From Rhodobacterales bacterium 52_120_T64 (GTDB lineage Bacteria; Pseudomonadota; Alphaproteobacteria; Rhodobacterales; Rhodobacteraceae), in the NCBI GenBank assembly GCA_002162875.1, contig MABA01000024.1, forward strand, positions 1-64,000: 64,000 nt of DNA. The letters run 5' to 3'. Positions 3,611 through 22,800 of the stretch are shown here, one piece after another. The stretch's first letter is position 1. Each line of letters begins with the position of its first letter. Position numbers and translations under genes: made by a program. A model generated the notes under the pieces. The model was not told where the DNA came from and did no database searches. It saw nothing but the letters and a program-made list of their open reading frames with translations.

Positions 3611-3728
3611 TTGGAGCTATATTGAGCAATCCACATAATGCTTGAAGCGAGCTATACACATGATAACATGCTTATTAATAACGATAAAAAGATAACCAGC
3701 AACTTTCATCAATGAACAGCCTGTTAGA

Positions 3729-4573: not shown

Positions 4574-4585
4574 ACGAGATGGCGT

Positions 4586-4616: not shown

Positions 4617-4726
4617 AGTAATTTTAAATCGGAATACAAAACTGATTTTGGTGAGTTTGGCTGGTAAAATTTCACACCAAAAACGGAAACAATTCCCATA
4701 ACAAAGTTATATAACCTGTTTACATT

Positions 4727-4758
4727 GCGCTACGTGGAGGCTTCACGTAGCGCTTTTT
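4727..4758 (+). terminator. strong orphan rho-independent terminator
   Basis: GCGCTACGTG pairs perfectly with CACGTAGCGC across a 7-base loop and is followed directly by five T. The orientation is for plus-strand transcripts. No open frame ends just before it: the lipoprotein stop lies 150 bases upstream and already has its own hairpin. It may be a backup terminator, the end of a deleted gene, or the 3' end of a small RNA from about 4617-4758. Confidence 0.75.
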
Positions 4759-4995
4759 GCAACATTTTCTGCCGTGGCCGGAACATGAGCAAATTTGAAG
4801 CAGATATTAATGGCGACACAGCTTCTAATTGGCTCGCTTCATTTTATCTAACAGCGACATCGAAGACCCAGAGATTGATTGGATGGGCAATCTATATCTT
4901 GCCTTGGGAATCCAATACTATTTCCATTAAAGTCAGCAACAAAACCGCCGTTTGCCCAACACCAATTCCCAGTTCCCAATATTGCGTTAGAAGAA

Positions 4996-5901: not shown

Positions 5902-5931
5902 TCACCAATAAATTCTTTTAGATTAGGATTT

Positions 5932-6075
5932 TCAGGAGAGTTTCGTGAGCGCCAGATTATCAACTGCTAGCCGGGCAGCATTTTCCTCAGCAGCGCGGTT
6001 AACTGGATCATCGGCCAAATGTGCGTACCGCATCGTTGTTTGGATTTGACTGTGGCCCAGCAACTTCCCCGTGAA
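5932..6075 (-). pseudogene. C-terminal remnant of a second tyrosine integrase
   Basis: The minus strand encodes GKLLGHSQIQTTMRYAHLADD followed by an Ala/Asn-rich tail and a stop. This is the last catalytic box of a tyrosine recombinase (GHSQ, then the nucleophile Tyr in RYAHL). The upstream domains are missing, and the 5' side turns into unrelated sequence before the deacetylase gene. It is a different integrase type from the one at 2390-3559, whose tail reads YARLNLDPVRESV. Confidence 0.82.
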
Positions 6076-6127
6076 ATTGCTTAAACGGTTTTGAGTTATT
6101 GTAAAAACGTTTTCCGGACAAAATGGT

Positions 6128-8515
6128 TCAAACGGGATTGTGAAGAAGGTTTGCCAATATTCGGTATGCGCCTGGCACCAATTTCTCCACTTGGTGGTGC
6201 AATATTAAGCTGGTGTGGGTATGGCGCCCTTTGCCAAAACGTCCAGTTAGTAATGCTCCGCGAAGTGGGTCTTCGTTTGTGTCGGACATCTCTAGAATTG
6301 GAGTGTAGGCTTCGTCCCATTCTGCTGCAAAATATAGTCCACGCTCTTTATCCCAGTTATCCCAGTCGTTCTTGGTGATTTTATTGGGAGTGTTTAACAA
6401 TTGATTGTCAGGGGCCAAATGCGATACCTCCGCGCTCTCATCGGTCACACGCCACCGCAGCGATGGTTTACCTATTTTCAGGTACGCAAGAGCTGTGGTT
6501 TCTGGATTCCAGTTGTCCCAAGGACGGTGGTAAAGTGTTATAAGGTTTCCACCCGCGAAAACCCAGTTATGCAAGTCATGCAAACGGGATTGAAGAGTTG
6601 GGCAAGTTTGAAACGCAAAAATGCCAATAAGGATCGAGTCAAATTCAGAAAATTCGACATTCTGCACCATCTCGCTCGTTAAGCTTTCAATATCCACCCC
6701 AAGCTTTCGCAGCCAAAAATCCGTGCGGTCGTTTCCGCCACCGATATAAGCAATCCGGCCCTTCGGTAGCGCCACGTTCATCACCTGAACATTAATCCCG
6801 GCAGCAACACATCGGTTCGCCGTGCCAATATGGCGGTAACTCATCCGATTGATCGATTGCGCTGGGTTTTCATCAAGCAGCAGACCGAACGTGTGTAACC
6901 CTTCTGCCAAACCGCTCAAAGGTTGTAGTGTGAATTGGTTGCCGGTTTGTGAAAACTTCCAACCCTGCGTACTTGAAAATTCAGGCTTTGAGCCTTTCGG
7001 AAAAATTTGTGTAAGACTGAGATCAATGTCAGATGGATTTGCCAGATTAAAGACCGCATCTGTTTGGGACAAACAGGCCGAATAAGCGGGGAGAATTCTT
7101 AGACGCTCCTCTGGATCAACCGAAATCCAAATCGGCTGATCGCCTTCAAACCATTCTAGTATTACGTTCAAAGGCGCATTCGCGCGATCCGCGTACCATG
7201 TGTCTGGATATGGATCACTTGGTTCTTCATCAGAAGGTATTAGGATTTCACAAGAATTCACTTCTGATTTATCAGTAGCCCAACCGGCTGGTGCCTTTAC
7301 TTGCATAGAAACTTCGCAGTCGGGTGCTCCTAGGTGTGTTGTAAGCGTCAGTCTTTCACCGGGGTGTGCTTCGTTTTGTGATAGGGTAACGCGACAGTTG
7401 ATATTGCGTGCTATTGCGAGGGCGTTTGATATCTGTCGTTGTTTATCCGACAAGCGGTGCAAAACTTCGGCTGTTGAAGCATCAGGGCACTTTGCTTTCG
7501 CAGTCGCAAGGTTTTTAAATGCCGTAACTAAATGCGATTTTATGGACGTGTAGTTGGGCCACGCAGCGATCGCTGCATCCAGTGCAGTTTGGGCATCACT
7601 TAACGCGGCGTTCAGTTCCGGGCAGTTCGCGTAGCTAGACAAGTCGAACAGGGTCTTTGGTAAACGATCAAATATTGTTTCTTCTTCAGTCTCGTTATCA
7701 TCAAAGTCCCATGCTAGATTCAACGGCCAAACGCTTGGTAACCCCGGTTCAACCCAACGCCCCATACCTTGCGTTCGATGAAAGCTGCGCGAATATTGCG
7801 CGATCTGGGCGTAATCCATTCCAAGCACGGGGTCGGCACCAGTAGCATTCACGCAAACAGTTTCTGGCGGTGGTGGAACGTCGTCATCGTATGCATCCCC
7901 AGCACCAGACCAAGCTGGTAAGTACAGCTTCTTGACTTGCCAAACGGGCAAGTTCTGTTCGGGAAATGCATCAGGGTCCGCCGCCAATTGTACCGCCTTA
8001 AAAGCACTTCTGGTCATCGCTTGGTGGTGGCCATGCTGGCCTGAGATATCTAGGAACGTAGGACAAACAATATCAGGACGTTCGCGGCGAATAATTAAAA
8101 CAAAGCGCTCAAGCGTTCGTTGTTCACCCCATTTTTCCAGTGTTTCGTTGCCAGATTTGGAAAAACCAAAGTCGAAAATCGTATCTTCGGGGGTTTCAGA
8201 CAGCCAATAATGGGTCATGTTAATGGCTTCCGCCGCACGCTCCATTTCACGGGTTCGAACAACCCCTAAATCGCGTGTAATCTCGCTTCCAATTGCATTT
8301 TGCCCGCCTTCCCCCCGGTTTGCACAAGCTTGTGACAGCTTAACACCGTCACGCAATCCAAGGGCTGCAAGCATGGCAGTTGTTTCATCATCCGGATGCG
8401 CCCCCGTATTCATAAATGAAATGCAGGAACGAAGCGGTTGCAGCGCCTTCCACATTCGAATGGCACGAGGGTTTGCGTTTTGCTTGGTAAGGCGGTCAAT
8501 ATCAGTAAGCGTCAT
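6128..8515 (-). CDS. large PIG-L-family deacetylase with C-terminal GATase-like region
   Basis: This 795-residue protein should remove N-acyl groups from a sugar or sugar conjugate in the cytoplasm, as no signal peptide is visible. The N-terminal 260 residues are a PIG-L/LmbE zinc hydrolase: AHPDDE at 39-44 supplies metal ligands and the catalytic Asp, and HGHH at 161-164 the last ligand. The middle part looks like beta-sandwich material. The last 200 residues (YIGGGNDRTDFWLRKLG, then FAGGNLITLYHRPWDNW) resemble a class I glutamine-amidotransferase/ThuA-like fold, as in other long PIG-L proteins. It starts 9 bases after the ROK gene on the same strand and is divergent from the ABC importer operon, so the imported substrate is probably N-acylated. 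The exact substrate is unknown. Confidence 0.85.
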   Translation of the reverse strand: MTLTDIDRLTKQNANPRAIRMWKALQPLRSCISFMNTGAHPDDETTAMLAALGLRDGVKLSQACANRGEGGQNAIGSEITRDLGVVRTREMERAAEAINMTHYWLSETPEDTIFDFGFSKSGNETLEKWGEQRTLERFVLIIRRERPDIVCPTFLDISGQHGHHQAMTRSAFKAVQLAADPDAFPEQNLPVWQVKKLYLPAWSGAGDAYDDDVPPPPETVCVNATGADPVLGMDYAQIAQYSRSFHRTQGMGRWVEPGLPSVWPLNLAWDFDDNETEEETIFDRLPKTLFDLSSYANCPELNAALSDAQTALDAAIAAWPNYTSIKSHLVTAFKNLATAKAKCPDASTAEVLHRLSDKQRQISNALAIARNINCRVTLSQNEAHPGERLTLTTHLGAPDCEVSMQVKAPAGWATDKSEVNSCEILIPSDEEPSDPYPDTWYADRANAPLNVILEWFEGDQPIWISVDPEERLRILPAYSACLSQTDAVFNLANPSDIDLSLTQIFPKGSKPEFSSTQGWKFSQTGNQFTLQPLSGLAEGLHTFGLLLDENPAQSINRMSYRHIGTANRCVAAGINVQVMNVALPKGRIAYIGGGNDRTDFWLRKLGVDIESLTSEMVQNVEFSEFDSILIGIFAFQTCPTLQSRLHDLHNWVFAGGNLITLYHRPWDNWNPETTALAYLKIGKPSLRWRVTDESAEVSHLAPDNQLLNTPNKITKNDWDNWDKERGLYFAAEWDEAYTPILEMSDTNEDPLRGALLTGRFGKGRHTHTSLILHHQVEKLVPGAYRILANLLHNPV

Positions 8516-8524
8516 TTTCTCTAC

Positions 8525-9721
8525 TCAACTAAATAATGCCAGTGAAGGCGTTGTATTTTTGTGGATTATCATTGCTGCACCGCCAATAGCCGCTGTGAAC
8601 CGACCAGACGTACCGCGAAGCACACGTGCCAAGGTCCGATCTTCTCGGTTGGCTAATGAACCCATCGGCAAATCAAGTGTTGCGATCAACGCATCCATCA
8701 CAGCGTCCGGCATAGCGCCACCTAGAATTATGGTTTCAGGGTCAAAAATATTCTCAAGGATACTGATTGCTTGGGAAAGGTGCCGTGCCGCAGTTTCAAT
8801 CCATTCCATCAAAACAGGATTTTCGTCTGTAAGTAATTGCGCCAGTGCAGATCCGTCGGGCAAATCAATCCCGCTTTGTTCAAGATAGGTTTTGACAGAC
8901 ATACGGCTGGCATATGTTTCAAGACAACCACGATTACCGCAAGCACATTGGATGCCGCCGGTTTGCGTGATTATATGGCCAATCTCGCCGAAATTGCCAA
9001 ATGCGCCTCGCTGCGCGTGGCCGTCAGCAATTACGCCCAATCCGAGGCCTGTTCCGAAGTACACAAAACAGAATGTATCAACAGTAGTCGCAGCCCCGGT
9101 CACCCGTTCTGCAATCGCAGCTGCGGTCGCGTCATTTTCGATGATGACCGGGCATTCAAGCGTTTGCTCAAAAACAGCTTGTATATCGATTCCACCCCAT
9201 TCCGGCAAATTTGCACCACCAAGGGCGCTTAGTCCCGAGACCCCAAATGGCCCAGGCATAACAATACCTGCGCCCAGTAATTGGCTTCTTTTACGATTGC
9301 TGTTTTTTATTGCGCGGTTAACGGTTTCCTTAATTGCTGGAATCGCATTGTCTGGCACAGCATTGGAAAAAGCCTGGCGCTCGCTATATATGCATTCGCC
9401 TGTCAGGTTCAGCACCGCGCAGATCAATGCATCCGGCCGAACCTCAACCCCAATCGCAAATGCGCCTTCTGGGTTTATTGTATACTGCGTTGCCGGCTTC
9501 CCGCGCACCCCTGTTTTGGGACCTACCGCAAGCAGAAGCCCGTCTTCTTCTAAAACTTCGGTTATGTTCGAAACCGCTTGAATACTCAGCCCGCAGCTTC
9601 GTGCAATTTCGGCGCGGCCCGCAGGTTCGTGGGCACGCACAAAGTTAAGAACGACCCGCCGGTTATGGCTTCGATTTCGCCCGGCATTCCCGCCTGTAGC
9701 TTTTAGTTTTTTATCTGTCAT
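8525..9721 (-). CDS. ROK-family transcriptional regulator of the catabolic locus
   Basis: This 398-residue protein has an N-terminal winged helix (NRRVVLNFVRAHEPAGRAEIARSCGLS, about residues 20-75) and a sugar-kinase-like ROK domain. The ROK zinc motif CACGNRGCLE and the phosphate-loop region FGTGLGLGV are present, and ENDATAAA is the usual nucleotide/sugar-site motif. NagC- and XylR-type ROK repressors bind a sugar or sugar phosphate and release DNA. It is divergent from the ABC importer with 188 bases between; a 13-bp palindrome (9749-9761) in that gap is a likely operator. Autoregulation plus control of both arms is inferred from this position. Some ROK proteins are kinases, but the winged helix argues for a regulator. 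Confidence 0.9.
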   Translation of the reverse strand: MTDKKLKATGGNAGRNRSHNRRVVLNFVRAHEPAGRAEIARSCGLSIQAVSNITEVLEEDGLLLAVGPKTGVRGKPATQYTINPEGAFAIGVEVRPDALICAVLNLTGECIYSERQAFSNAVPDNAIPAIKETVNRAIKNSNRKRSQLLGAGIVMPGPFGVSGLSALGGANLPEWGGIDIQAVFEQTLECPVIIENDATAAAIAERVTGAATTVDTFCFVYFGTGLGLGVIADGHAQRGAFGNFGEIGHIITQTGGIQCACGNRGCLETYASRMSVKTYLEQSGIDLPDGSALAQLLTDENPVLMEWIETAARHLSQAISILENIFDPETIILGGAMPDAVMDALIATLDLPMGSLANREDRTLARVLRGTSGRFTAAIGGAAMIIHKNTTPSLALFS

Positions 9722-9748
9722 GGCCTACTGTAACCTGAAGTTATTTAC

Positions 9749-9761
9749 TCAAGTAACTTGA
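9749..9761. promoter_or_regulatory. candidate ROK operator
   Basis: TCAAGT-A-ACTTGA is a perfect 13-bp palindrome in the divergent region between the ROK regulator and the importer operon, 28 bases upstream of the ROK start codon. A looser palindrome (TAAC..GTTA) lies next to it at about 9731-9743. The assignment rests only on symmetry and position. Confidence 0.45.
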
Positions 9762-9909
9762 TTTAAGTATTGATTTATTTTCGAAGGCGGTCAACAGTGC
9801 TTTCATCGGTCCACTAAGAAATTTCAAAACAAGAAAGCAATGCGGGCCTTATGTATCTGTTAAGAAACAACTTATCAGAAATATTGCACGCAACAGGAGG
9901 TTGTAAAAG

Positions 9910-11163
9910 ATGAAATCGTGGAAGAATACATTAATGGGAATCACTGCCGGAGCGACAATTGCTCTTAGTGCAGGTGCCAGCCAAGCGGTCGAAATTGAGT
10001 ATTGGCAATACTTTTTCGAGGCACGCGTAAACGCTATCGATACCCTAATCGAAAAGTTCGAAGCCGAAAATCCGGACATCACCGTAAATCAAACCACATT
10101 CCCTTATGCGGACTATCGCACAAAGGTTGCAGCGGCGATTCCGGCGGGTGAAGGCCCTGATGTAGTTCAGCTGTTTTACGGATGGTTAAATGACTATGTC
10201 GAGGCGGAACTAATTTCGCCACTACCAGTTGACGCATTCCCACCAGAGCAAATCCGCGCAGAATTCTTCCCAATGGTTCAGGCCATGGAAAAAGACGGTC
10301 AATATATGGCGCTTCCAACCGCTGTTCGTTCGCTCGCGCTATTCTATAACACCCGCTTGTTTGAAGAAGCAGGTATCGATGGCCCACCTAAAACGCTGGA
10401 CGAATTGATCGAAACAGCGGCGGCTTTGACCAAAACCGATGCTGCTGGAAATATCACCCAAGTTGGTATCACTACTGGCATGAACGCACAGGACCACCAC
10501 TGGGTTCGTGAAGTTCTAATTCGTCAGTTCGGTGGCGATCCGTACACTGGCGATTATCAAACTGTAACTTACAATGACGACGCAGGTGCGGCAGCATTGC
10601 AGTGGTACTCTGATCTTCAAAACAAGCACGGTGTAACACAAGCCGGATTTATGGATGAACCACAGGCCGCCTTCAAGGCTGGTCGTGCAGGAATGCATAT
10701 TGATGGATCGTTCCGCATCGGTGCGCTGAATAAAACACGCGGATTGAAATGGGGTGTTGCTGAACTTCCGGCTGGCCCGGATGGCACACAGTCCAACTAT
10801 TCAAGCTATTGGGTGAATGCAGTTACAACCAAAGCTGAAGGGGAAAAAGAAGCGGCCGCGTTGAAATTCCTTGCTTTCATCACTTCGGACGAGGCTATGC
10901 AAATTTGGCTAGATACCGTTGGCGAATTGCCTGCTAAACCATCTGCAGGGCTAACCGATGCAAATCGGGCTGATCCGGTGTTTGGACCGTTCATCAGTGG
11001 GCTTGCCTATGCAAAAACAACGATTTTTGCGAACGAGTCTGGTCAACGTCAGGTGTTGATGGATGCTATGCAACGTATCCTTCTTGAGGGCGAAACACCC
11101 GAAAATGCAATCGGAATTGCCGCTGCTGAAGAGCAGGCAATCCTTGACGGATACTACAAATAA
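9910..11163 (+). CDS. ABC importer substrate-binding protein, sugar (CUT1/family 1) type
   Basis: This 417-residue periplasmic protein would capture the substrate and deliver it to the two permeases that follow. A classic signal peptide (MKSWKNTLMGITAGATIALSA, cleaved near SQA-VEI) precedes a family 1 solute-binding fold with the usual opening EIEYWQYF and the pattern GEGPDVVQLFYGW. The ribosome site AACAGGAGG lies about 7 bases before the ATG. It is first in a six-gene operon (importer, lyase, ATPase, kinase). A hairpin after the gene may keep its mRNA more abundant than the permease part. CUT1 systems take up oligosaccharides, polyols and glycoside-like compounds; the ligand here is unknown. 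Confidence 0.93.
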   Translation: MKSWKNTLMGITAGATIALSAGASQAVEIEYWQYFFEARVNAIDTLIEKFEAENPDITVNQTTFPYADYRTKVAAAIPAGEGPDVVQLFYGWLNDYVEAELISPLPVDAFPPEQIRAEFFPMVQAMEKDGQYMALPTAVRSLALFYNTRLFEEAGIDGPPKTLDELIETAAALTKTDAAGNITQVGITTGMNAQDHHWVREVLIRQFGGDPYTGDYQTVTYNDDAGAAALQWYSDLQNKHGVTQAGFMDEPQAAFKAGRAGMHIDGSFRIGALNKTRGLKWGVAELPAGPDGTQSNYSSYWVNAVTTKAEGEKEAAALKFLAFITSDEAMQIWLDTVGELPAKPSAGLTDANRADPVFGPFISGLAYAKTTIFANESGQRQVLMDAMQRILLEGETPENAIGIAAAEEQAILDGYYK

Positions 11164-11176
11164 TTAAAAACTTGAT

Positions 11177-11210
11177 GGCGGTGCAAATGTGCCGCCTTCA
11201 TCACTTTTTT
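11177..11210 (+). terminator. intercistronic hairpin/attenuator after the binding-protein gene
   Basis: GGCGGTGC pairs with GTGCCGCC (two G-U pairs) across an AAAT loop, followed after a short spacer by six T. It sits between the binding-protein gene and the first permease gene, the usual place for partial termination or 3'-end protection that keeps binding protein in excess. Confidence 0.6.
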
Positions 11211-11221
11211 GGAAGCCGGAT

Positions 11222-12115
11222 ATGAATTGGTATCGCAAACTCTCAATAAAACAAAAGCAAGTCGTATGGGCATGGTCGTTCCTTGCCATACCGGTATTAT
11301 TTTATACGGTCATCCGGTTTTACCCAACATTTGGCGCCATTGTTCTATCGTTTCAGAACTGGAATTTACTGGGCGCGAAAACGTGGGCCGGACTTGAGAA
11401 TTATCAAAGGCTAGTTGCCGACCCAGTATTCTGGAAAGTGTTTTCAAATACCTTTATTTATTTGCTGCTGGGAACCCCCATCAGCTTGGTTATTTCCTTT
11501 GTAATTGCCTACCATTTGGACAAAGTCAATTTTCTGCACGCAACAATTCGGGCGATGTATTTCCTCCCGTTCATGACATCCGCAGTGGCGATGGCTTGGC
11601 TATGGCGGTGGTTCTACCAGCCCGTTCCAATTGGCCTCTTTAACAATATATTGTCCAGCTTAGGAATTTCACAATTCCCCTTCCTAAATTCTACGTTCTG
11701 GGCGCTGCCCTCGGTGCTGGCACCAGCTGTTTGGGCGGGCTTGGGCTTTCAGATCATCATTTTCATGGCTGGATTACGTTCAATCCCACAATCCTATTAT
11801 GAAGCTGCACAAATTGATGGCGTTGGTCCTTGGACCATCTTACGCGAAATCACATTGCCGCTACTCAAACCCACAATCGTCTTTTTGGTCGTGTTCTCGT
11901 CGATCGGCTTCCTGCGGATATTTGACCAGGTTTTCAACATGACCACTAACGATCCGGGCGGTCCGCTGAACTCTACCAAACCGCTGGTGTTGATGATTTA
12001 CGATACGGCTTTCAACGCCTTCAATATGGGATATGCAGCGGCGCAAACGGTCGTATTGTTCACAATTTTGCTTATCGTCAGTCTTCTTCAACTATACGTC
12101 ATGCGGGAGCGCTAG
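11222..12115 (+). CDS. ABC sugar permease, first subunit (MalF/UgpA type)
   Basis: This 297-residue inner-membrane protein has about six membrane segments, starting with WAWSFLAIPVLFYTVIRFYP. The coupling-helix EAA motif reads YYEAAQIDGVGPWTILREITLPLLKP, which contacts the ATPase. I choose the ATG at 11222 (MNWYRKL), which has GGAAG upstream; the longer frame starts inside the attenuator hairpin. Its stop codon is followed at once by the ATG of the second permease, so the two are translated together. Together with the binding protein (9910) and the ATPase (14494) it forms a complete CUT1 importer. The membrane topology was read by eye. Confidence 0.92.
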   Translation: MNWYRKLSIKQKQVVWAWSFLAIPVLFYTVIRFYPTFGAIVLSFQNWNLLGAKTWAGLENYQRLVADPVFWKVFSNTFIYLLLGTPISLVISFVIAYHLDKVNFLHATIRAMYFLPFMTSAVAMAWLWRWFYQPVPIGLFNNILSSLGISQFPFLNSTFWALPSVLAPAVWAGLGFQIIIFMAGLRSIPQSYYEAAQIDGVGPWTILREITLPLLKPTIVFLVVFSSIGFLRIFDQVFNMTTNDPGGPLNSTKPLVLMIYDTAFNAFNMGYAAAQTVVLFTILLIVSLLQLYVMRER

Positions 12116-12997
12116 ATGAGCAATATCGAATATAAGGCATCTGCCGCTACGCTAGATACGGCCAAGCCCTATAACTACAATAAACGGATGGAGCCGGCAA
12201 AAGTTATCCGTTGGACCATATTGTTCCTTGGCGGGGTCGTTATGATCATGCCGATCGTATTCATGATGTCGACATCATTCAAATGGCCGCATGAGATTTA
12301 CAATCTAAAAATCATTCCAGATGACCCAACAATCGAGAACTACACTTATGTTCTTGAGGATGGTCGGTTTTACAAATGGTTTGTAAACTCACTAATCATT
12401 GCGACAATAACTACGATTTCTGCTGTGATATTTGACTCCCTGGTCGGATATACGCTTTGCAAATTCCGTTTCCGCGGCAGAATGATTGTATTCGTTGCAA
12501 TTCTTTCAACATTGATGATCCCGACCGAGATGCTCGTTATTCCTTGGTACCTCATGGCCAAAGACTTCGGTTGGTTAAACAGTTACTGGGGCATAATGTT
12601 CCCTGGCGTAATGACGGCGTTTGGTACGTTTCTGATGAAGCAGTTTTTTGAAAGCGTACCGGATGATTTTCTTGAGGCTGCGCGCATTGACGGGCTAAAC
12701 GAGTTCCAAATCTGGTGGACCGTTGCGATGCCACTGGTTACTCCAGCGATTTCAGCCTTGGCGATATTTGTGTTCCTTGGAAATTGGACTGCGTTTATCT
12801 GGCCGTTAATCGTAACAAATGACCCAGAGCTCTATACGCTTCCTGTGGGGTTAACCACGTTCAGCGTAGAACAAAGCGTGGAATGGGAGCTGATTATGAC
12901 CGGTGCCGCGCTTGCGACTATTCCAACCCTAATCGTGTTTCTGGTCTTCCAACGTTACATCATCCGTGGTGTGGTAATGACTGGACTAAAAGGATGA
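12116..12997 (+). CDS. ABC sugar permease, second subunit (MalG/UgpE type)
   Basis: This 293-residue partner permease has a cytoplasmic N-terminus of about 35 residues, then six membrane segments beginning WTILFLGGVVMIMPIVFMMSTSFK. Its EAA motif is FLEAARIDGLNEFQIWWTVAMP. It starts directly after the first permease stop codon and its own stop overlaps the start of the lyase gene (ATGA), showing tight coupling with the metabolic gene that follows. It pairs with the 11222-12115 protein to form the translocation channel. Confidence 0.92.
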   Translation: MSNIEYKASAATLDTAKPYNYNKRMEPAKVIRWTILFLGGVVMIMPIVFMMSTSFKWPHEIYNLKIIPDDPTIENYTYVLEDGRFYKWFVNSLIIATITTISAVIFDSLVGYTLCKFRFRGRMIVFVAILSTLMIPTEMLVIPWYLMAKDFGWLNSYWGIMFPGVMTAFGTFLMKQFFESVPDDFLEAARIDGLNEFQIWWTVAMPLVTPAISALAIFVFLGNWTAFIWPLIVTNDPELYTLPVGLTTFSVEQSVEWELIMTGAALATIPTLIVFLVFQRYIIRGVVMTGLKG

Positions 12998-14493
12998 TCG
13001 ACAAAACCAGTTTTCCCGATCCAGCCTACAAAGAAACGGTTTTGGCGCCGCTATTTGAGGGTGCGAAGGCTCATTTTGTTGAGGCCGTAAGGGCGATCAA
13101 TCAAGCCCATTTGGTTATGCTAACCGAAACCGCAATTATCTCGAAAACGGACGCGGAGAGCATCGCCAATGCACTAACCGATATAGATGAAAACCTTGAT
13201 GTAAGTTCTTTGGAATACACTGGTGAGTACGAGGACTATTTCTTCTTTGTTGAAGCCGAGCTGAAGAAACGCCTTGGTGCCGATCTTGCAGGTGCTTTGC
13301 ATACAGCACGCAGCCGAAATGATATGGATCATACGGTTTTCAAACTTGTGCTGACCGAAAGGCTGGACGAATTACTCACCCATACTCATCTTTTGGCGCA
13401 ATCCCTTATCGAAACCGCAAGGCGCGAGAAGAACACGTTAATCGTCGCGTATACCCACGGCCAACCAGCACAACCTAGCACATTTGGGCACTACCTCGGC
13501 GCCGCTACCGAGGTGCTTCTGCGTGACATCCAACGTTTACATACGATCCGGGCTGACCTGCAAAAATGCCCAATGGGTGCCGCAGCGATAACCACATCTG
13601 GATTTCCAATTGATCGTCACCGAATGGCTGAACTGCTGGGGTTCAGCGCACCATTGCAAAACTCCTATTCCTGCATCGCTGCCGTTGACTATGTGACCAG
13701 TCTTTATAGCGGGATAAAGCTACTGTTCTTACACCTTGGTCGCGTCATTCAAGATTTACAGTTTTGGAGCTCGTTTGAAGTATCCCAACTCTATGTACCA
13801 AACAGTTTTGTTCAAATCAGTTCAATCATGCCGCAAAAACGAAACCCGGTGCCGATCGAACATTTGCGCTTATTGTCATCCCTCACAGTTGGTCGTTGCG
13901 ATATGATTGTGAACACCATGCACAACACACCTTTCACCGACATGAACGATAGCGAAGGCGAAGTTCAACAAGCTGGGTATAGCGCATTTGAAAGCGGTTC
14001 GCGTGTACTAAAACTGCTAGGCGCGTTTATTCCTGCGCTGACCATCAATAGCGATAAAGTTCGCAAAAACATCGACGCAAGTTGCATTACTGTTACTGAA
14101 CTGGCTGATACTTTAGTGCGAAAAGAGAGCCTCTCGTTTAGACAAGCACATGAAGTTGCGGCGATCACTTCACGCGATGTTATCGAAAAATCCAAACCAC
14201 TTGCAGAAGGTTACGAAGCATTTAAATCCGCCTTTGAAGATCAAACTGGCCGCACTACAACTTTGACCGAAGACGCTTACAAATTGGCAGTATCGCCAGA
14301 AAACTTTATTGCTGTTCGCACAAGATATGGCGGACCAGCCGAAGCGCCAATGGATAGCGCATTACCCGAATACAGCGCAACGCTCGGCCAGCAAATGAAA
14401 CACGCATCCCTAAATAATACGTATCGAATAAAGTCTGACGATGCACGCACTGCGGCATTTGCCAGATTAACCAACATCGAAGGAGAGGTTTAA
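12994..14493 (+). CDS. argininosuccinate-lyase-superfamily C-N lyase, substrate probably not argininosuccinate
   Basis: This 499-residue cytoplasmic enzyme belongs to the fumarase/aspartase superfamily, whose members split a C-N or C-O bond and release fumarate. The three conserved regions are present but altered: HTARSRND at 103-110 (HTGRSRND in true ArgH), THGQPAQP at 154-161 (THLQRAQP in ArgH; THGQP is seen in PurB) and the mobile loop SSIMPQKRNP at 276-285 (GSSxMPQKKNPD in ArgH). The catalytic Ser and the loop Lys/Asn remain, so activity is likely. It lies between importer permease and importer ATPase genes, coupled by ATGA to the former. This points to catabolism of an imported N-succinyl-like or aspartate-adduct compound rather than arginine synthesis. 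Automatic annotation would probably call it argH. Confidence 0.82.
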   Translation: MIDKTSFPDPAYKETVLAPLFEGAKAHFVEAVRAINQAHLVMLTETAIISKTDAESIANALTDIDENLDVSSLEYTGEYEDYFFFVEAELKKRLGADLAGALHTARSRNDMDHTVFKLVLTERLDELLTHTHLLAQSLIETARREKNTLIVAYTHGQPAQPSTFGHYLGAATEVLLRDIQRLHTIRADLQKCPMGAAAITTSGFPIDRHRMAELLGFSAPLQNSYSCIAAVDYVTSLYSGIKLLFLHLGRVIQDLQFWSSFEVSQLYVPNSFVQISSIMPQKRNPVPIEHLRLLSSLTVGRCDMIVNTMHNTPFTDMNDSEGEVQQAGYSAFESGSRVLKLLGAFIPALTINSDKVRKNIDASCITVTELADTLVRKESLSFRQAHEVAAITSRDVIEKSKPLAEGYEAFKSAFEDQTGRTTTLTEDAYKLAVSPENFIAVRTRYGGPAEAPMDSALPEYSATLGQQMKHASLNNTYRIKSDDARTAAFARLTNIEGEV

Positions 14494-15552
14494 GTGGCTA
14501 CGGTAGAATTAAAAGGCCTTGTAAAAACGTTTGGCAAAACCGAAGTGCTTCACGGAATAGACCTCGCTGTTGAAGACGGAGAATTTATTGTTTTCGTGGG
14601 ACCGTCCGGTTGTGGGAAATCAACAACTTTGCGCCTTTTGGCTGGTCTTGACGAGGTTTCCAGCGGGGAAATATTGATTGGCGGTAATGTCGTCAATAAT
14701 CTTGAACCAAAAGAACGAAATATTGCGATGGTTTTTCAAAACTACGCAATTTATCCACATATGTCAGTTCGCAAAAACATTGGCTTCGGTTTGCGGACTT
14801 CGAAAATGTCAAAAGCAGACAAAGAAAAGAGAATTGATGAAGTCGCTGAATTGCTAGGCATGACAGATTTGCTAGATCGCAAACCCGGTCAATTATCAGG
14901 TGGCCAACGTCAACGCGTAGCGATCGGGCGGGCAATGGTCCGTGACCCGTTGGTATTCCTGTTTGACGAACCGCTTTCGAATCTCGACGCACAGCTACGA
15001 ACACAGATGCGCCTAGAAATTAAAAAACTGCATCAAGACGTCGGTACCACGATTGTATTTGTGACACACGATCAAGTTGAGGCAATGACCCTTGCCGACC
15101 GGATTGTGATTATGAAGGATGGGCATATCCAACAGGTGGGTACGCCTGCGGAAGTCTATCAAAAACCAGTAAATATGTTTGTAGCGCAATTCATTGGCGC
15201 ACCGTCAATGAACATGCTTCCGGGTAAAAAATCCAGTGCTGGCATTGTCCTGAATGCCGGCCCAACTATCTCTGAAAGTCTAAACTCTGACGCTTCGGGA
15301 ATTATGGTCGGCATCCGACCAAACGACCTAACACCTGCGCTCGATAACGAGGCGGCGCTTTTTGAAGGCCGCGTCAAGATCATCGAACCTTTGGGGCCGG
15401 AAACATTAGTCTATGTCGAACTTGGACAACACGAAGTTTTGGCGACTGTTCCAGGTCGAACGCCACCAAAAATTGGAGATACAATCCGGCTTAAGGCACC
15501 CCAAGAGGAAATTCACTTTTTTAACGCTGACACCGGAGCGGCGATATTATGA
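14494..15552 (+). CDS. ABC importer ATPase, UgpC/MalK type
   Basis: This 352-residue ATPase powers the CUT1 importer. The nucleotide-binding domain shows Walker A GPSGCGKST (about residues 37-45), a Q-loop in MVFQNYAIYPH, the signature LSGGQRQR, Walker B VFLFDEPLSNLDA and the switch His in VTHDQ. A C-terminal TOBE/MalK regulatory region follows from about residue 240 (VGIRPNDL). It starts with GTG after the site GGAGAGG and directly abuts the lyase stop codon. Its stop overlaps the start of the kinase gene. Placing the ATPase after a catabolic enzyme suggests that transport and breakdown genes are expressed together. Confidence 0.94.
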   Translation: MATVELKGLVKTFGKTEVLHGIDLAVEDGEFIVFVGPSGCGKSTTLRLLAGLDEVSSGEILIGGNVVNNLEPKERNIAMVFQNYAIYPHMSVRKNIGFGLRTSKMSKADKEKRIDEVAELLGMTDLLDRKPGQLSGGQRQRVAIGRAMVRDPLVFLFDEPLSNLDAQLRTQMRLEIKKLHQDVGTTIVFVTHDQVEAMTLADRIVIMKDGHIQQVGTPAEVYQKPVNMFVAQFIGAPSMNMLPGKKSSAGIVLNAGPTISESLNSDASGIMVGIRPNDLTPALDNEAALFEGRVKIIEPLGPETLVYVELGQHEVLATVPGRTPPKIGDTIRLKAPQEEIHFFNADTGAAIL

Positions 15553-16460
15553 CTGCTCCAAAAGCAGGTAAAATTTTATGTGTTGGCCGATTGTACTGCG
15601 ATCTGGTTTTTTCGGGTGTTCCGAAATTACCCGTGGTCGGCGAGGAGGTTTTCGCAGACAATTTGTCAACCCACGCTGGCGGCGGTGCGTTTATAACGGC
15701 TGCCTATTTGGCGGCAGCAGGGCAAAAGGTAGGTTTGTGTTCAGTCATTCCATCCGGCCCATTTGGTGAAGTCATCGAAGCTGAAATTCGAAATTCTAAA
15801 ATAGATTTATCGCAATGCAGGAAAGCCCCAACTGGATCAAGTCCACAAGTAACTGTTGCCATTACATCTTCGAGCGACAGAGCGTTTCTAACCAAAAGGA
15901 GCGGCTTAGCTGTACCTGATACAATCACTGCTGCGATGGATGATTCCGAATTATCACATGTTCACATAGCAGAGTTGGCCACGCTTTCAGAATTTCCAAT
16001 TTTGGTGCAAATGGCCAAGGTCCGGGGACTGACAATATCTTTAGATTGCTCTTGGGATGCAGATGTAATCGGCGAACCAATGTCACGAGATTTGTTTAGG
16101 GGAATAGACCTATTCTTGCCAAACGAAAAAGAATTGCGTGCACTTTTTTGCATTGATGGCGAAATTGCGGATCATCAGATCGAGATTTCTCATCATGTCC
16201 CAATTGTCGCTGTAAAACGCGGTGAAGACGGTGCTAAGTTGATTACAGAAACATCAATTATTGATGCTCCTGCAAATTCTTGCGAAGTTATAGATACTAC
16301 TGGCGCAGGCGACGCATTTAATGCGGGCTTTATTCTTTCGTGGATAAATGGGCGACCGCTAAGTGATTGTTTGAGGACAGGGAATTTGAGTGGTTCCGAG
16401 GCTACGAAACACATCGGGGGCGCAAAAGGTGCTAAACTCTTATCAGGACCTGTTCTATGA
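15549..16460 (+). CDS. PfkB/ribokinase-family carbohydrate kinase
   Basis: This 303-residue kinase would phosphorylate a sugar or sugar acid released by the preceding enzymes. The family hallmarks are an N-terminal glycine-rich substrate loop (THAGGGAFITAAYLAAAG) and the C-terminal ATP/anion-hole motif DTTGAGDAFNAGF, with the catalytic Asp in GAGD. The length is normal. The start ATG overlaps the ATPase stop codon. It is the last gene of the operon; an IS6-like transposase relic starts within about 20 bases of its stop, so genes once downstream may have been lost. The substrate cannot be read from sequence; in this family it ranges from ribose and fructose to keto-deoxy acids. Confidence 0.88.
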   Translation: MTAPKAGKILCVGRLYCDLVFSGVPKLPVVGEEVFADNLSTHAGGGAFITAAYLAAAGQKVGLCSVIPSGPFGEVIEAEIRNSKIDLSQCRKAPTGSSPQVTVAITSSSDRAFLTKRSGLAVPDTITAAMDDSELSHVHIAELATLSEFPILVQMAKVRGLTISLDCSWDADVIGEPMSRDLFRGIDLFLPNEKELRALFCIDGEIADHQIEISHHVPIVAVKRGEDGAKLITETSIIDAPANSCEVIDTTGAGDAFNAGFILSWINGRPLSDCLRTGNLSGSEATKHIGGAKGAKLLSGPVL

Positions 16461-16479
16461 TTTCTGGGCGGAATACCAA

Positions 16480-16837
16480 TCACTAACGTCTCTTTGGTGT
16501 GATTGTATTTAACATTCTGTCGGCTTTTGAGGTGTCGTTCTAGGCCGACTATCTTCATCGCGGCACCATATGGGCGGAGCCTGTTGGGCACAATTATCGT
16601 GGGAGAACCGTAGCGTTTTATCGTTTTTTTGAAGGACTTTAACGCCGCTTTGCGAGCTAGCTTCTTTGTAGCATAGTTTTCCACAACTGAGATGGGGCGC
16701 GTAGCTTCCGTCACGGTGTATGGACGACTGCGTGGATTGACATCCGTGATGCTAAAGATGCACTCGGATATTGATTGCCCGTGAGGCCGGTACTTCGACG
16801 ACAAAATTAACGCGAGAAACACTCTGTTGGGTTTCAA
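16480..16837 (-). pseudogene. IS6-family transposase remnant
   Basis: A minus-strand frame contains ENYATKKLARKAALKSFKKT, then KRYGSPTIIVPNRLRPYGAAMK and later NHTKETLVI-GIPPRNHR. This matches the catalytic part of IS26/IS6-type transposases (ESYVTKTRDKKAALKFLKK, RYGRPEVIVTDGLRSYGAAM). The second DDE-type Asp (normally TDGLRSYG) has become PNRLRPYG, and the upstream half is not recognisable. No terminal inverted repeats were found. It is inactive. The open frame continues into the kinase gene only by chance. Confidence 0.75.
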
Positions 16838-17489
16838 CTTTTGTTGCTCGTTAGATGTTGGGTTCTATTAGGTCGCAATAATGCTGTCGTTAAGGTTTAT
16901 CACTGTAAATTGAGCAATTCGTGCAAATCTGGGTGAGACAATTAATTGCCTAGCCGTTGCATCGATAAGTCGGCTGAGCAATGAATAATTTAATAGTCCG
17001 ACCATTTTAACAAGAGGCGAATCACCACAAGTATCGAACAACAATTGATTGAATAGTCGGTTTTTTGTCAATAATAGTCCTCAAAATGCGGTCCCAAAGC
17101 AATGAAAATGCCGAAAGTGATATCGGCGGAAAATTCCGCAATTGAGGTTTATCCACCACGCAAGTGAACGCCAAATAGGGGAGCAAGGTAGGAGCACTAT
17201 ACTTTGTGGTATAAAGTATTATTCGCTACTAGGAGTTGTGTAAAATTGCCAATTTGAAACAGCTAAGTAGAAGATAAAATTAGGATAGTATTCGCCTTTT
17301 AGACAGTAAATATAGGATATTATTGTCTCCAATTTGGTGATGAATTAAGCAAAATTTTGACAGACGGCCTTAAATATGCCTAATATTTGAAGGTAAATTG
17401 ATTAATAGTTTTCCGGGTGGTGGCTGAACACAAGGCTTTTGTTAGGCAAAAGTAAGTATGTTTGAAACCGTGATCTGGAGTAACTAGAG
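16838..17489. other. AT-rich stretch without a recognisable gene
   Basis: No frame here has a plausible start plus ribosome site, and no RNA gene was recognised. Together with the transposase relic upstream it looks like decayed insertion DNA. Confidence 0.5.
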
Positions 17490-17615
17490 ATGCAAAATTT
17501 ATTACTAGCCACTGCTGTCCCAGTATTATTGGGCGCTTGTCTGGGTTTTTCTGAAATGTTGAATCGGGTACAGACGAGTCGCGTGGAGAAACTGAGTTTT
17601 CCAAAGAACCGTTAA
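17490..17615 (+). CDS. 41-residue small lipoprotein, possibly a frameshifted relic
   Basis: An ATG with GGAG nine bases upstream opens a short frame starting MQNLLLATAVPVLLGAC, a signal sequence with lipobox LGAC. It ends after only 24 further residues. From about 17570 a second frame stays open and polar (SGTDESRGETEFSKEPL...), and a third ends in a run of five Asp near 17800. The piecewise pattern suggests a longer secreted lipoprotein broken by two frameshifts. A genuinely tiny entericidin-like lipoprotein is the alternative. Confidence 0.4.
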   Translation: MQNLLLATAVPVLLGACLGFSEMLNRVQTSRVEKLSFPKNR

Positions 17616-17998
17616 GCCAAGAAAGTTTCGATCATCGCCGACCAAGCGGTGATCTTAACACCCGTGGTGAAGTCTTACGTTTAACTATTAGCAGCAAGTT
17701 ATGAACATGGCGACGGATGCGCCGATAGCGACCATACTCTCAGCGGCGGCACAAGTGACGCACCTAATTGTACTGAGCAAGGCAGTGGCGATGATGACGA
17801 CGACTAAATCGAGCGACCAAGTATACAAATCGCCGTGGAGCGTTGTGTAAGTAGGCGCACTTTCGAAGTAGATGAAAGAGTACCTTGCCGCTCTAGTCAA
17901 AGCAGCCTTTGGGTGCGAACTATTTAACGTTTTGATACAAAATCCAAACTAGCAGAATTTGGAGGATAATTAACTATTGATCTCTTTTTAGGAGCAAA
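17616..17998. other. region upstream of tadE with only broken frames
   Basis: The first 200 bases carry polar, Gly/Ser/Asp-rich frame fragments that could be the rest of the lipoprotein relic. The last 150 bases have no coding sign and probably hold the tadE promoter; no clear -35/-10 pair was identified. Confidence 0.35.
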
Positions 17999-18415
17999 AT
18001 GATGTTTGTGTTTTATAATAAGTTTACTAAGTATATTTCGGAATTTCGAAGCGATGACAGCGGCGCTGTAACGGTTGAGTTTGTCCTGTGGGTGCCGGTG
18101 TTTATGACAATTCTTTGGCTTGTCGCCGATGCATCACTACTATTTTTTTCCAACACAAAAATGTGGCGGGTCGCTAGTGACACTACGCGTCAAGTCGCAG
18201 TGGGCGCTCTCGATACGGCGGAAGCAGAAGCATTCGCTAGAAACCGGAGCGCACAAGGTAAGCATTACCTGGTTAATGTAACGTCTAATGGAACGATCGT
18301 GACGACAAATATTTCGATAGACATCGGTGATGTCAGCTTTACGAAATTATTCGCATTCGCAGTTGGTTCCAAAATGTCCGTAACGGTTGTCCAAAGGATG
18401 GAGCCTATCGTCTAA
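17999..18415 (+). CDS. TadE-like pseudopilin
   Basis: This 138-residue protein has the TadE layout. A short cytoplasmic start precedes SDDSGAVTVEFVLWVPVFMT, where a conserved Glu sits in the first turn of a single membrane helix (about residues 23-50), followed by a periplasmic domain of about 90 residues. TadE pseudopilins are minor subunits of Flp/Tad pili. The site AGGAG lies seven bases before the first of two adjacent ATG codons. Its partner, a TadG-like gene, follows after 47 bases. No other tad gene (secretin, ATPase, prepilin peptidase) is in the window, so the pair depends on machinery elsewhere. Confidence 0.8.
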   Translation: MMFVFYNKFTKYISEFRSDDSGAVTVEFVLWVPVFMTILWLVADASLLFFSNTKMWRVASDTTRQVAVGALDTAEAEAFARNRSAQGKHYLVNVTSNGTIVTTNISIDIGDVSFTKLFAFAVGSKMSVTVVQRMEPIV

Positions 18416-18462
18416 TAAATTTATTTTTGGCAAAATTGGAAAGAGCGAAGGGGCCTGATATT

Positions 18463-19749
18463 ATGGGATCCAGTATAAAAGTTCAGTTTCGAAAGTTTGT
18501 AGATGATACAGATGGCGTAGCAACAATCCTGTCTGTCTATTGGGTGATTTTATTTCTGATAATCGGAGGGCTCGCAGTTGATTATACTAATGCAGAGCGA
18601 GCCGAGGCACATCTACAAGCGACAGCGGACGCTATTGCGTTGGCTGCGGTACAAGACTTACCGGATACAACAGTTGCCCTTGAGACCGCGGAGAAATTTG
18701 TTCGCCATAATGCGCCCACAGCGCGGTACGGCGACGTACTTCGGAATTCGGAAATTGTATTTGGACAGTGGGACAGAGATACTCGAAAATTTATTGCCGG
18801 CGCCGAACCTTATTCAGCAGTTAATACAACAGTTCACCGCGATACAGATTTTGGCAATGCGGTCCCCACATACTTTCTAAGGTTCGCGGGTTTCATGAAA
18901 TGGGACGTTGCTGCTACGGCTATTGCCGTCCAGGGTAAAATAATCCCCCCATGTAACGCAGGCGGATTTTTTAGCGAAGGAGAAGTCTTTTCCGGTAGTA
19001 ATAACAGTTATATCGATGGCTTCTGCTTGCACGGTGATGACGGTGTGAAAATTGGTTCAACTAACGACTTTGGCGATGGCACCAAAATAACGATGCTCGA
19101 CGCGGATAATACGTTTGTCGAAAGCTCGGATAATATAATTCCGGAAGGCGCTGTTTCGAGTGCATCCCACGACTTCACATTACCGCATCTGGTGGCGGAA
19201 ATGCGGGCGAGTATGGCGTCGGGATCATCAGCAGGGCTGCCGTTCGAAATTAGTAACGTCGTTTATCTCTCAGAAATCACCTCGTCTACAAATTTAGTAG
19301 CCGGCACTTTATATGTTGTTGATGAGGTCGCCGATTTGGGGTCGAATGTTGACATCAGTGAGATAGCCATTGTGGCTGGGAAGGAAATTAAGATTGGTTC
19401 AAATGTACGAATGTCGGAAACGGTACTCGTCACCAACTCCAAAGTGCTTTTTGGTTCAACCAACGATATCGGCACCGCAAATTTCTGTGAGAGCGGGCAT
19501 TATAGTGTTTATGTGATGTCCGGAGACAACATTGAATACGGCTCACAGAGCCTATTTCAAGGTGTTCGCATGGGAGCGGTCGGCGAAGTTAAATTGGGCT
19601 CTGAACTCAGAGCGGTACAGGGCGTTTATGCGGAATCGCTTGGTAATATTGATTACGGTAGCGCAGATACGTATGGCGGTTGTCCTCAAGGGTTAAGGAA
19701 TCAGCTGTTTGAAAAATTTGATCGCTTTGCGTATGCGTTGGTTTATTGA
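18463..19749 (+). CDS. TadG-like membrane-anchored protein with a Gly-Ser solenoid
   Basis: This protein (428 residues from the ATG at 18463; a TTG at 18427 would add 12) begins like TadG: a charged start, DDTDGVATILSVYWVILFLI as membrane anchor, then the Tad motif ERAEAHLQATADAIALAA. The distal half is different. From about residue 185 short units recur with Gly-Ser at a spacing of about 19 residues: LGSNVDISEI, IGSNVRMSET, FGSTNDIGTA, YGSQSLFQGV, LGSELRAVQG, YGSADTY. The hydrophobic-polar alternation suggests a right-handed beta-helix of at least six coils. TadG normally ends in a von Willebrand A or simpler domain, so this is a variant tip protein. It may display an adhesive fibre on the pilus or cell surface; that is inference. 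Confidence 0.72.
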   Translation: MGSSIKVQFRKFVDDTDGVATILSVYWVILFLIIGGLAVDYTNAERAEAHLQATADAIALAAVQDLPDTTVALETAEKFVRHNAPTARYGDVLRNSEIVFGQWDRDTRKFIAGAEPYSAVNTTVHRDTDFGNAVPTYFLRFAGFMKWDVAATAIAVQGKIIPPCNAGGFFSEGEVFSGSNNSYIDGFCLHGDDGVKIGSTNDFGDGTKITMLDADNTFVESSDNIIPEGAVSSASHDFTLPHLVAEMRASMASGSSAGLPFEISNVVYLSEITSSTNLVAGTLYVVDEVADLGSNVDISEIAIVAGKEIKIGSNVRMSETVLVTNSKVLFGSTNDIGTANFCESGHYSVYVMSGDNIEYGSQSLFQGVRMGAVGEVKLGSELRAVQGVYAESLGNIDYGSADTYGGCPQGLRNQLFEKFDRFAYALVY

Positions 19750-19811
19750 GGCGCGTGTCAATCACACGAGACTGACGATAGATTTGCTCATTCCAAGATA
19801 ATGGTTTGCAG

Positions 19812-22800
19812 TCACTGCCTCTTTCTGCGGGAAACAGCAGCGAGGATCGGGGTTGCAATAACCAAAATAGCGATCGTTCCTAGAATTGCTATCATCAAGG
19901 CTGATGCTCCATCGGGCAGGATCGGAATCAGTTTTGCAATTTCGTTAACCCAGCCAATCAATTCGCCGTTCAATACGAAATACCCTACGGTCACAGACAA
20001 CAACGACAATATTAGCAAATTTGTGACGACTAATCCGATACGAAGTTTCTTTGGAACTCGTCTACCCAAAAGGCTTCGACGCAGCGATGGCCACAACTTT
20101 GATATGTCGTGTTTCACAGCAAAAAGAGACGGAACCATTAATAAAACGATGAAGAAGCCAAATCCAAGCCCGTATACCAATGTAATAACGGTTGGTCGAA
20201 GGAATTGGGCTTGCTGACTTGTCTCGAATAATAGCGGGGCTAAGCCAACGACGGTGGTCAACGTGGTAAGGACTAGAGGGCGCAAGCGATCGGTTGTGGC
20301 GTCAATTATGGCGGGAATTAACCCCTTCTTTTCGGAATATTCCTGAATTGTGGACACAAGAACGATGGAGTCATTAATAATGATGCCAGTCATTCCAATT
20401 AATCCAATAACGGTGAACATAGACATTGGTACCGACCAAACGTAGTGCCCCCAAATCGTTCCCACCAGTCCAAAGGGGATGATGGCCAACACCACGATTG
20501 GTAGCGTCCAACTGGCGAAAATCCAGCAAAGGACCAAGTAGATCCCCAGTATTACCAGCGTAAACCCGATAAGAGCATCCGAAAGAAAATCCTGTTCCTG
20601 TTGAGCTAGTCCGCCGAGTTCCCATTCAACCGCAAAGCGCATGGCTAGATCGGGGAGGATCTCGGTCTGCAGGGTCTCGGTTATTTCCGCTGCAATCTCC
20701 GGGTTATCTTCAGCAACGTCACCACTAATATTGATAAGCCGCAGACCGTTTTCACGCAAGATCATCGAGAAGCCAAGGCTGCTCTCAACCGAGACAATAT
20801 CTGATAGGGGTACGTATTGTCCTGTTGGTGTGCGCATCAGTGTTTGATTTAGGAAATCCGCGTTAACCTCATCTGCGGGCAGCTGCACGATAACCTTGCT
20901 TGTATGTATCCCGTCGGGCAGGCTTGCCGCTTCGATACCGTTTAGACGATCTCGAAGTTCGGAACCCAACGCGTCAATTGTAAAGTTCAGAGACTCGCCA
21001 AGAGGGGTTAGCAGCAGAAGATATTCTGTTTTGTCATATGAAAGGCTGTCTTCTAGACCACTAATTTCAGGATAACGAGACAATGTGAATTTCAGATATT
21101 CAGCAGCTTCTTTCAAAGTAGTTGAATCTGCACCGAAAAGACTAACATCAATGGAATCGCCTCCCGGACCTGCACCAAACCGCCGAAAGCTTAAAGTTTC
21201 CAATAGTGGAAGGCGCTGAACTTCGTTTTGCAGAGCGGCGAGAAATTCGGAACTGGAATATGGACGAAGATCTGCATCTATTAAACCGATATCAATTGAT
21301 CCTAGTTGGTCGGCATCCTTGGTTCCCTGGCCCAATAATCCCCGGCCAGTGGTTCCACCAACTTGTGCCAAACTGTGCAGGACCGGAGCCACACCAAATT
21401 CATCTTCGTAACGATCAGAGACGACAATTGCAGCACGCTGGACTTCTTGAACCATTTCGATCGTGTCTGCGCGAGTGGAGCCGGGTAACATGGCGATATT
21501 TCCAGTAACCGAACCTTGTTCGGGCGAGCTGAAGAACCGCCAGGTAACATCACGATTGATTACCATTGTAATGGTGCTTGATAAAATCAGGATCATCGCG
21601 GCCAGCATTGGGTAGCGCAACCGAATAACCCAATGCATCCCCGGTCGTACAACCGTACATCGCAGCCAGCGGAAACCGGCGTCGAAAGCTCGGTTCGGGG
21701 CGTCGTACCACTTATTTTCGGCACGAGAAGTAATGGCATGGCGCATATGGTTGGGAAGAATTAGAAAACACTCGGCCAAGGACGCGACGAGTACTGCGAT
21801 GACGGTGAACGGGATATCTGATATTAGCGCCCCGAAACGCCCGCCAATCAGTATTAGTCCGAAAAATGCCAAAACCGTGGTTATTGTAGACGAAAAGACC
21901 AGCGATATCATGCGGGAGGCGGCATTTTCGGCAGCAACGGCCGGGCTTTCTCCAAGCCGCCGCGCACGAAAATCGGCATGTTCGCCAACAACGATTGCAT
22001 CATCGACGACAATGCCAAGCGTGATAATCAATGCAAACAATGACATCATGTTAATTGTCAAACCAGCGATATACATCACAGCAATCGCCGCAAACATCGC
22101 GACCGGAATTCCCGCAGCCACCCAAAAGGCCGTTTGAAATCCGAGGAACAGATAGAGCATGAACAATACCAGCGCCAAGCCCATAAGCCCGTTTTCCAGC
22201 AGTATCGATAGCCTATCTGTGATTTGCTCAGCGCGCGTATTAATCAAGGTGACGGTGGTACCCTGAGGCAGGATCGCTTGCAGATCTGCTGCGACTTTTT
22301 CAACGGTTGCTTGTATCGCAATCGCGTCCCCACCGTCCGAGCGATTTACGCTAATCAGGACGGCTTGATTGTCGCCGATAAAATAGGCCCGACCGCTATC
22401 GGCACCCTCGGTTTCGATACTCGCTACATCGCCAACCAATAATTTATCACCATCGGGCGTGATGCGTATTGCAATTTCAGCGATCTCCTGTGCGCTTCGT
22501 CGTTCTATTCCAGTCCGAATTCTTGATGCCCCACCTGCAACGTCACCAGCCGGATTGGTTTGAGTTTGGTTTGCAATGGCGGTTGCGACCTCACTCAGCT
22601 GAACGTCGTTTCGAAACATAGATTCTGCAGAAATTGAAACGCTAACAATGGGGTCAGAGATGCCACGTATAGTGGTGTGGGTAATGCCCTCCCGATAGAG
22701 TTTTGCCGTAAATTCGTCTGCAAACTCGCCAAGTTGTACCAACGAAACCGGACCCGAAATTACGACATCTGTAACCCCGTCACGCCATGCACCGCGTATT

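Follow-up and report, generated by a model that had tools for sequence, protein, structure and literature searches.

Argininosuccinate lyase (ArgH, TIGR00838) has H162 and E296 at the fumarate end of its active site, and its K325 (K323 in the goose protein) is an active-site residue (PMC2779060). The EDDS lyase of Chelativorans sp. BNC1 (6g3d, 6rx8) is related to ArgH and releases fumarate from a non-arginine adduct, with an active-site set of Q159, D290 and Y320 together with R112, N113 and N288, of which Y320 lies near the substrate (PMC12363623). For Bacilli, the NCBIfam model PRK06705 (NF005218) is named 'argininosuccinate lyase', and its function is given as ArgH only. Among the LmbE/PIG-L proteins, the metal motif is HXDD plus a distal His, and characterised enzymes of the MshB/BshB type have GlcNAc-malate, GlcNAc-inositol and the thiol conjugates of these as substrates (PMC4101496).

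Here we analysed a window of 64,000 nucleotides from Rhodobacterales bacterium 52_120_T64 that encodes a lyase resembling ArgH. It is like ArgH in its fold, its ASL_C2 domain, nine catalytic or fumarate-side residues and the motifs HTARSRND and SSIMPQK, but differs in forming a separate clade, in the replacement of arginine-side positions, in its THGQP and KRNP variants and in lying in a sugar-catabolic operon. EDDS lyase is the best fold match, but has Q in place of H155, lacks all eight signature residues described below and lies in another gene context. PRK06705 is the best NCBIfam model for the window lyase (331.7 bits) and for a Brevibacillus relative (465.9 bits), with all matches below the curated cut-off of 883 bits, and the Bacilli genes that match it fall in the clade of the window lyase. 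The PIG-L proteins encoded beside these lyases have the HXDD plus His motif in common with BshB1/BshB2, Bca and MshB/Mca, but all score below the equivalog cut-offs of the BshB and MshB models, and the large partner (about 770-870 aa) carries extra domains.

An ArgH-like lyase gene in a sugar-type transport operon

At the coordinates given in the preliminary description (12994-14493), the lyase is encoded by an intact forward-strand open reading frame for 499 residues. It belongs to the aspartase/fumarase superfamily, with a match of 138 bits to Lyase_1 (PF00206), an ASL_C2 domain, and S276/S277, K282, N284, T154 and H155 all present; the catalytic Ser is thus retained, as had been stated. The ATG at 12994 overlaps the TGA of the preceding permease gene, which ends at 12997, and this ATGA (12994-12997), also correctly described before, suggests translational coupling of the two genes.

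The three motifs quoted in the preliminary description, HTARSRND (103-110), THGQPAQP (154-161) and SSIMPQKRNP (276-285), are correctly placed. All three had been taken as altered relative to ArgH, which holds for the second and third only. THGQPAQP differs from the ArgH form THLQxAQP at G156 (L in 94% of ArgH) and P158, and R283 of SSIMPQKRNP stands where 88% of ArgH have K. The reading that HTARSRND is altered is rejected, as this is ordinary ArgH sequence (H103, T104 and R106-D110 are ArgH residues in the alignment), and the first departure comes one residue later, where M111 replaces a Q found in 100% of ArgH rows. More telling are changes beyond the quoted motifs, at P19, K25, Q274, V286, H290, H310, N311, D316, N318 and E321.

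The lyase gene is part of an eight-gene module. The reverse strand encodes a large LmbE/PIG-L metallohydrolase (6128-8515; 795 aa, with an HPDDE and HGHH metal motif and without a signal peptide) and a ROK-family transcriptional regulator of the sugar-sensing type (8525-9721; ROK 179 bits, HTH). On the forward strand, profile matches identify the solute-binding protein of an ABC importer of the sugar (MalE/UgpB) type (9910-11163), the UgpA-like permease A (11189-12115) and the UgpE-like permease B (12116-12997); the lyase is followed by the UgpC/MalK-type ATPase (14494-15552) and a PfkB-family sugar kinase (15549-16460). NagB is present in the window genome. The gap between the ROK and solute-binding protein genes holds an imperfect palindrome, TTTACTCAAGTAACTTGATTTAA (9744-9766), which is a probable ROK operator. 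Words from its half-sites are found again in 41-45 of the 63 homologous gaps, and a search of the genome that tolerated up to three mismatches located the 20-nt core at this one site, a single-copy arrangement that would fit a local regulator with one target. A phage-type tyrosine integrase with an Arm DNA-binding domain (2390-3574) lies about 2.5 kb from the cluster, and no tRNA was found beside it within positions 1-20000.

Separation from ArgH and an eight-residue signature

Against the argH equivalog model TIGR00838 the window lyase scored 290.7 bits, narrowly above the cut-off of 279.5, and plasmid-borne annotated relatives are labelled argH in public records. For these two reasons the misnaming that had been anticipated from automated annotation is real. 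Against the purB equivalog model the protein reached 71.8 bits, far below the cut-off of 326.2. Four Lyase_1 genes are present in the window genome, including a canonical ArgH (L002) confirmed in alignments and tree; the remaining two probably encode a putative FumC and PurB.

In the main tree, which comprised 75 proteins, all ArgH rows fell in one clade (support 100) and the window lyase in a separate one (support 98-99), together with alphaproteobacterial, Granulosicoccus, Bacillota and Microbacterium relatives. Forcing it into the ArgH clade cost 83.9 log-likelihood units and was rejected (p-AU 5.8e-5). Deinococcus relatives grouped with the window lyase clade (support 98), and their grouping with ArgH was disfavoured (p-AU 0.016). 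The preliminary description had proposed a phylogeny, naming robust placement within true ArgH as the outcome that would count against its reading of a fumarate-releasing lyase with a non-ArgH substrate. The tree gives no such placement, and the separate clade, the rejected constraint and the genome's own ArgH all support that reading.

The nine catalytic or fumarate-side residues common to ArgH and the lyase clade are R108, N109, T154, H155, S276, S277, K282, N284 and E289, with H155 and E289 equivalent to ArgH H162 and E296; all nine are kept in every complete clade row. The arginine part of the ArgH substrate is presumably held by S29, D33, Y323, K325, Q328 and K331. At these positions the window lyase has P19, K25, D316, N318, E321 and V324, where the assignment of P19 and K25 is alignment-dependent, as N-terminal positions shift in a second alignment; the Deinococcus group has G at the position of E321. 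The neighbourhood of residue 316 corresponds to that of Y320 in EDDS lyase. Of the EDDS lyase active-site set, the window lyase has the equivalents R108, N109 and N284, while the other positions are taken by H155, V286 and D316/M317.

Eight positions, Q274, R283, V286, H290, H310, N311, D316 and D319, form a signature of the clade. They are encoded together with the catalytic loop (S276/S277-K282-N284) in codons 274-320 (13813-13953, forward strand). All eight residues were found in 153 of 159 clade sequences, a count that includes incomplete sequences (two truncated rows are among the remainder), and in both Deinococcus relatives despite an identity to the window lyase of about 34%. Only one or two were found in 19 ArgH rows, in a Haladaptatus paralog and in three other ArgH-like paralogs, and none in EDDS lyase. 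The signature is not due to chance. It also follows gene context, since the Deinococcus genes with all eight residues lie in sugar-type loci, while paralogs without it have other neighbours.

Several of these paralog loci are described here in their own right. The Haladaptatus plasmid 'argH' (L218, 8962-10449), which is without the signature, has rhodanese-like and sialidase-like genes as its flanking genes; genes of the MFS and mandelate-racemase families are close by. A signature-less ArgH-like paralog at L221 (G094 C1:90500-106000; lyase at 6927-8426) shares its locus with genes for a SIS-domain protein, an ABC transporter of the amino-acid type, a regulator resembling GntR and an L-asparaginase, which is possibly a fructosyl-asparagine/aspartate pathway. 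Two further ArgH-like paralogs (L222, 7078-8631; L223, 6967-8532) lie near NRPS-like genes and genes for a PLP (PALP) enzyme, a GHMP kinase and an ATP-grasp protein resembling L-amino-acid ligases, and perhaps serve in the synthesis, rather than the breakdown, of an N-succinyl-type product.

The PIG-L partner and gene context across relatives

Residues H40-P-D42-D43 and H161/H163/H164 (HGHH) are invariant in 27 large PIG-L sequences, in agreement with the LmbE metal site. The fold of the large protein is matched best by MshB and also by diacetylchitobiose deacetylase and BshB, and we propose it as the amidase/deacetylase of the lyase pathway. For the small PIG-L partners, BshB2 or MshB models give the highest scores. 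The N-terminus of the large protein is non-hydrophobic in 26 of 26 sequences of the alphaproteobacterial type and has a hydrophobic segment in 22 of 25 from Bacilli, as called by a simple hydropathy window rather than a signal-peptide predictor. Because of this difference, cleavage would probably be cytoplasmic in the alphaproteobacterial type and extracellular in most Bacilli. The switch goes with a change of importer type, with L163 and L184 as exceptions.

Variation was also seen among individual PIG-L loci. Tandem large PIG-L genes occur at L161 (2619-7808) and L162 (9588-14826), and in each case one copy has a hydrophobic N-terminus and the other does not. The large PIG-L of Deinococcus actinosclerus (L220, 9476-11704), annotated only as hypothetical, has NPCBM-associated and CBM9 domains. 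A creatininase/MftE-like amidohydrolase gene stands between the large PIG-L and lyase genes at three loci (L165, L169, L174) and a few genes from the lyase at a fourth (L145).

Across 80 related loci, most share an order in which PIG-L and ROK genes occupy one strand and those for the solute-binding protein, two permeases, lyase, ATPase and usually PfkB the other. The full eight-gene module is present in most alphaproteobacterial relatives with sufficient flank, and PfkB is absent from at least eight relatives with sufficient flank (L007, L008, L009, L012, L014, L059, L064, L069). Lyase genes of Bacilli mostly adjoin another importer type and a large PIG-L, often with a NagK-like BadF kinase and a BshB2-like small PIG-L, and the Microbacterium lyase has a small PIG-L and a ROK kinase as neighbours. 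Both Deinococcus lyases are accompanied by ROK, a sugar-type solute-binding protein and permeases, an MshB/BshB-like PIG-L and a carbohydrate kinase (PfkB). The kinase slot is thus filled by three unrelated families (PfkB, NagK/BadF and ROK), and between phyla the importer and kinase families are exchanged, while the lyase and PIG-L are mostly constant. Among 345 genomes of Actinomycetes, no clade members were found besides the starting Microbacterium. Downstream of the Microbacterium lyase-kinase pair lies an OsmC-like (peroxide/thiol) gene (L081, 12558-13106), which would suit a thiol-containing substrate.

The lyase and the large PIG-L also tend to occur in the same genomes. In the window's order (292 genomes) each was found in 33 genomes and both in 32; among 398 genomes of Bacilli, the lyase was found in 72, the large PIG-L in 56 and both in 54, leaving 18 of the 72 lyase-bearing Bacilli without the large PIG-L. 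Fisher p values of about 1e-40 and lower ignore shared ancestry and are not readable as probabilities. Physical linkage alone is insufficient to account for the co-occurrence, because in some Bacilli (G442, G476, G673) the two genes are far apart or on different contigs. At four loci of a Bacilli subclade with the same signature (L176, L180, L182, L183), no PIG-L lies beside the lyase, and an N-methyltryptophan-oxidase-like FAD enzyme and an Amidohydro_2 protein are found instead. A sugar-type importer is also present at these four loci.

Candidate substrates and their meaning

The window gene very likely encodes a fumarate-releasing lyase of amino-sugar-conjugate catabolism rather than an ArgH. 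The preliminary description is amended with regard to the substrate, which it had left open, as the neighbours (PIG-L, ROK, sugar-type importer and sugar kinase) point to an amino-sugar conjugate. The computed support consists of the separate clade, the intact catalytic residues, the invariant signature, the conserved module, the lyase/PIG-L co-occurrence, the operator-like palindrome and NagB. We infer the reaction direction and the substrate class: the substrate would contain a sugar, to judge by the importer type, the ROK regulator and the kinase, an acylated 2-amino group because of the PIG-L partner, and a dicarboxylate able to leave as fumarate because of the lyase. The best-known compound compatible with both fumarate chemistry and a GlcN-glycoside amidase is GlcN-malate. 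GlcN-alpha-O-L-malate, the core of bacillithiol, would account for all three of these features, and its malate has the configuration needed by the superfamily.

The reading that we favour, with a probability approaching an even balance, is that an imported conjugate of an N-acyl amino sugar and a dicarboxylate, with bacillithiol or GlcN-malate the likeliest, is broken down to fumarate and an amino sugar. Under this reading the ABC importer would bring in the N-acylated conjugate, for which bacillithiol (Cys-GlcN-alpha-O-L-malate) and its GlcN(Ac)-malate core are the likeliest candidates, and the PIG-L hydrolase would take the acyl group off the 2-nitrogen. The Ser loop of the lyase would then abstract the C3 proton of the malyl group and eliminate the anomeric oxygen of glucosamine as leaving group, cutting the malyl C-O bond to give fumarate and glucosamine. 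The sugar would be phosphorylated by PfkB and exit via NagB, fumarate would enter the TCA cycle, and ROK, bound at its operator, would keep the cluster repressed as long as the sugar product is absent. The identity of the substrate as bacillithiol or GlcN-malate is tentative, at best approaching that same balance and possibly some way below it. It is possible, at the lower end of that range, that a scavenging pathway for these compounds exists in at least four phyla, with the lyase acting as an ether lyase on a malyl glycoside, a reaction new to the ArgH branch; to our knowledge, ether cleavage has no precedent there. Also weighing against the favoured reading are the relatives without PfkB, the 18 lyase-bearing Bacilli without the large PIG-L and the G in place of E321 in the Deinococcus group.

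The synthase gene bshC is missing from the window genome (G000), where no match to BshC (PF10079) was found. Own synthesis of bacillithiol is thereby ruled out, so the organism would need to scavenge it. BshC was present in 18 of 20 lyase-bearing Bacilli tested and in none of seven other lyase-bearing genomes.

An N-linked substrate is somewhat unlikely, and would imply the same kind of pathway. Here an aspartate conjugate, of an amino sugar or of the Amadori/Heyns type (fructosyl-aspartate and N-(dicarboxyethyl)-glucosamine are examples), would undergo C-N cleavage to fumarate and an amino sugar. Every characterised relative in the ArgH branch that we know of cleaves C-N bonds, and the kinases are compatible with an amino sugar. 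The amine-oxidase-like FAD enzyme of the Bacilli subclade is a better fit to such a substrate and counts against GlcN-malate, and a separate ArgH-like paralog has genes for asparaginase and a SIS-domain protein as neighbours. However, a succinyl-alkylated nitrogen is a poor site for a PIG-L amide hydrolase, which in the window's order is nearly one-to-one with the lyase, and the substrates of the MshB/BshB-like partners are sugar glycosides whose 2-nitrogen is free or acylated (PMC4101496). An amino-sugar-dicarboxylate lyase could also act on an undescribed glycan or polysaccharide decoration other than GlcN-malate, such as a malyl ether at another sugar position, which would suit the carbohydrate-binding domains of large PIG-L partners (NPCBM-associated and, in Deinococcus actinosclerus, CBM9) and the hydrophobic N-termini, like those of secreted proteins, of many of them. 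This we regard as doubtful, since the importers and small PIG-L partners are of the small-molecule kind and we know of no such natural decoration.

The fold and sequence comparisons raise two further alternatives. EDDS lyase is the top structural match (Foldseek 2e-28) and the second best by sequence, which would suit a lyase for aminopolycarboxylate chelators or metallophores. This is improbable, as EDDS lyase lacks a firm tree position, has Q159 against H155 of the clade and shares no signature residue, and the transporter, kinase and regulator encoded by the module are all of sugar type; residues and neighbours thus do not support it despite the fold. Least probable of all, and rejected on the grounds of tree, residues and gene context, is a second, divergent true ArgH of arginine biosynthesis or argininosuccinate catabolism. 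The TIGR00838 score, the public argH labels and the complete catalytic residues speak for it, but the forced placement was rejected, a canonical ArgH is encoded elsewhere in the genome, the equivalents of all six arginine-side residues are replaced, and the gene lies in a sugar operon with no arg genes.

In the openly accessible literature, no relevant paper was found on bacillithiol uptake or catabolism, on breakdown of GlcN-malate or a lyase for it, or on this operon, which, given that scope, is weak evidence of novelty.

Many genes of this group probably carry the name argH, given that 72 of the 398 Bacilli genomes and 33 of the 292 in the window's order have one, and genes misnamed in this way distort reconstructions of the arginine pathway and mask a catabolic route. 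The eight-residue signature gives annotators a simple means to tell ArgH from this group now. If bacillithiol is the substrate, the pathway would be a route by which other bacteria feed on bacillithiol and would explain the fate of GlcN-malate, and the superfamily, which has uses in biocatalysis, would gain an O-linked substrate.
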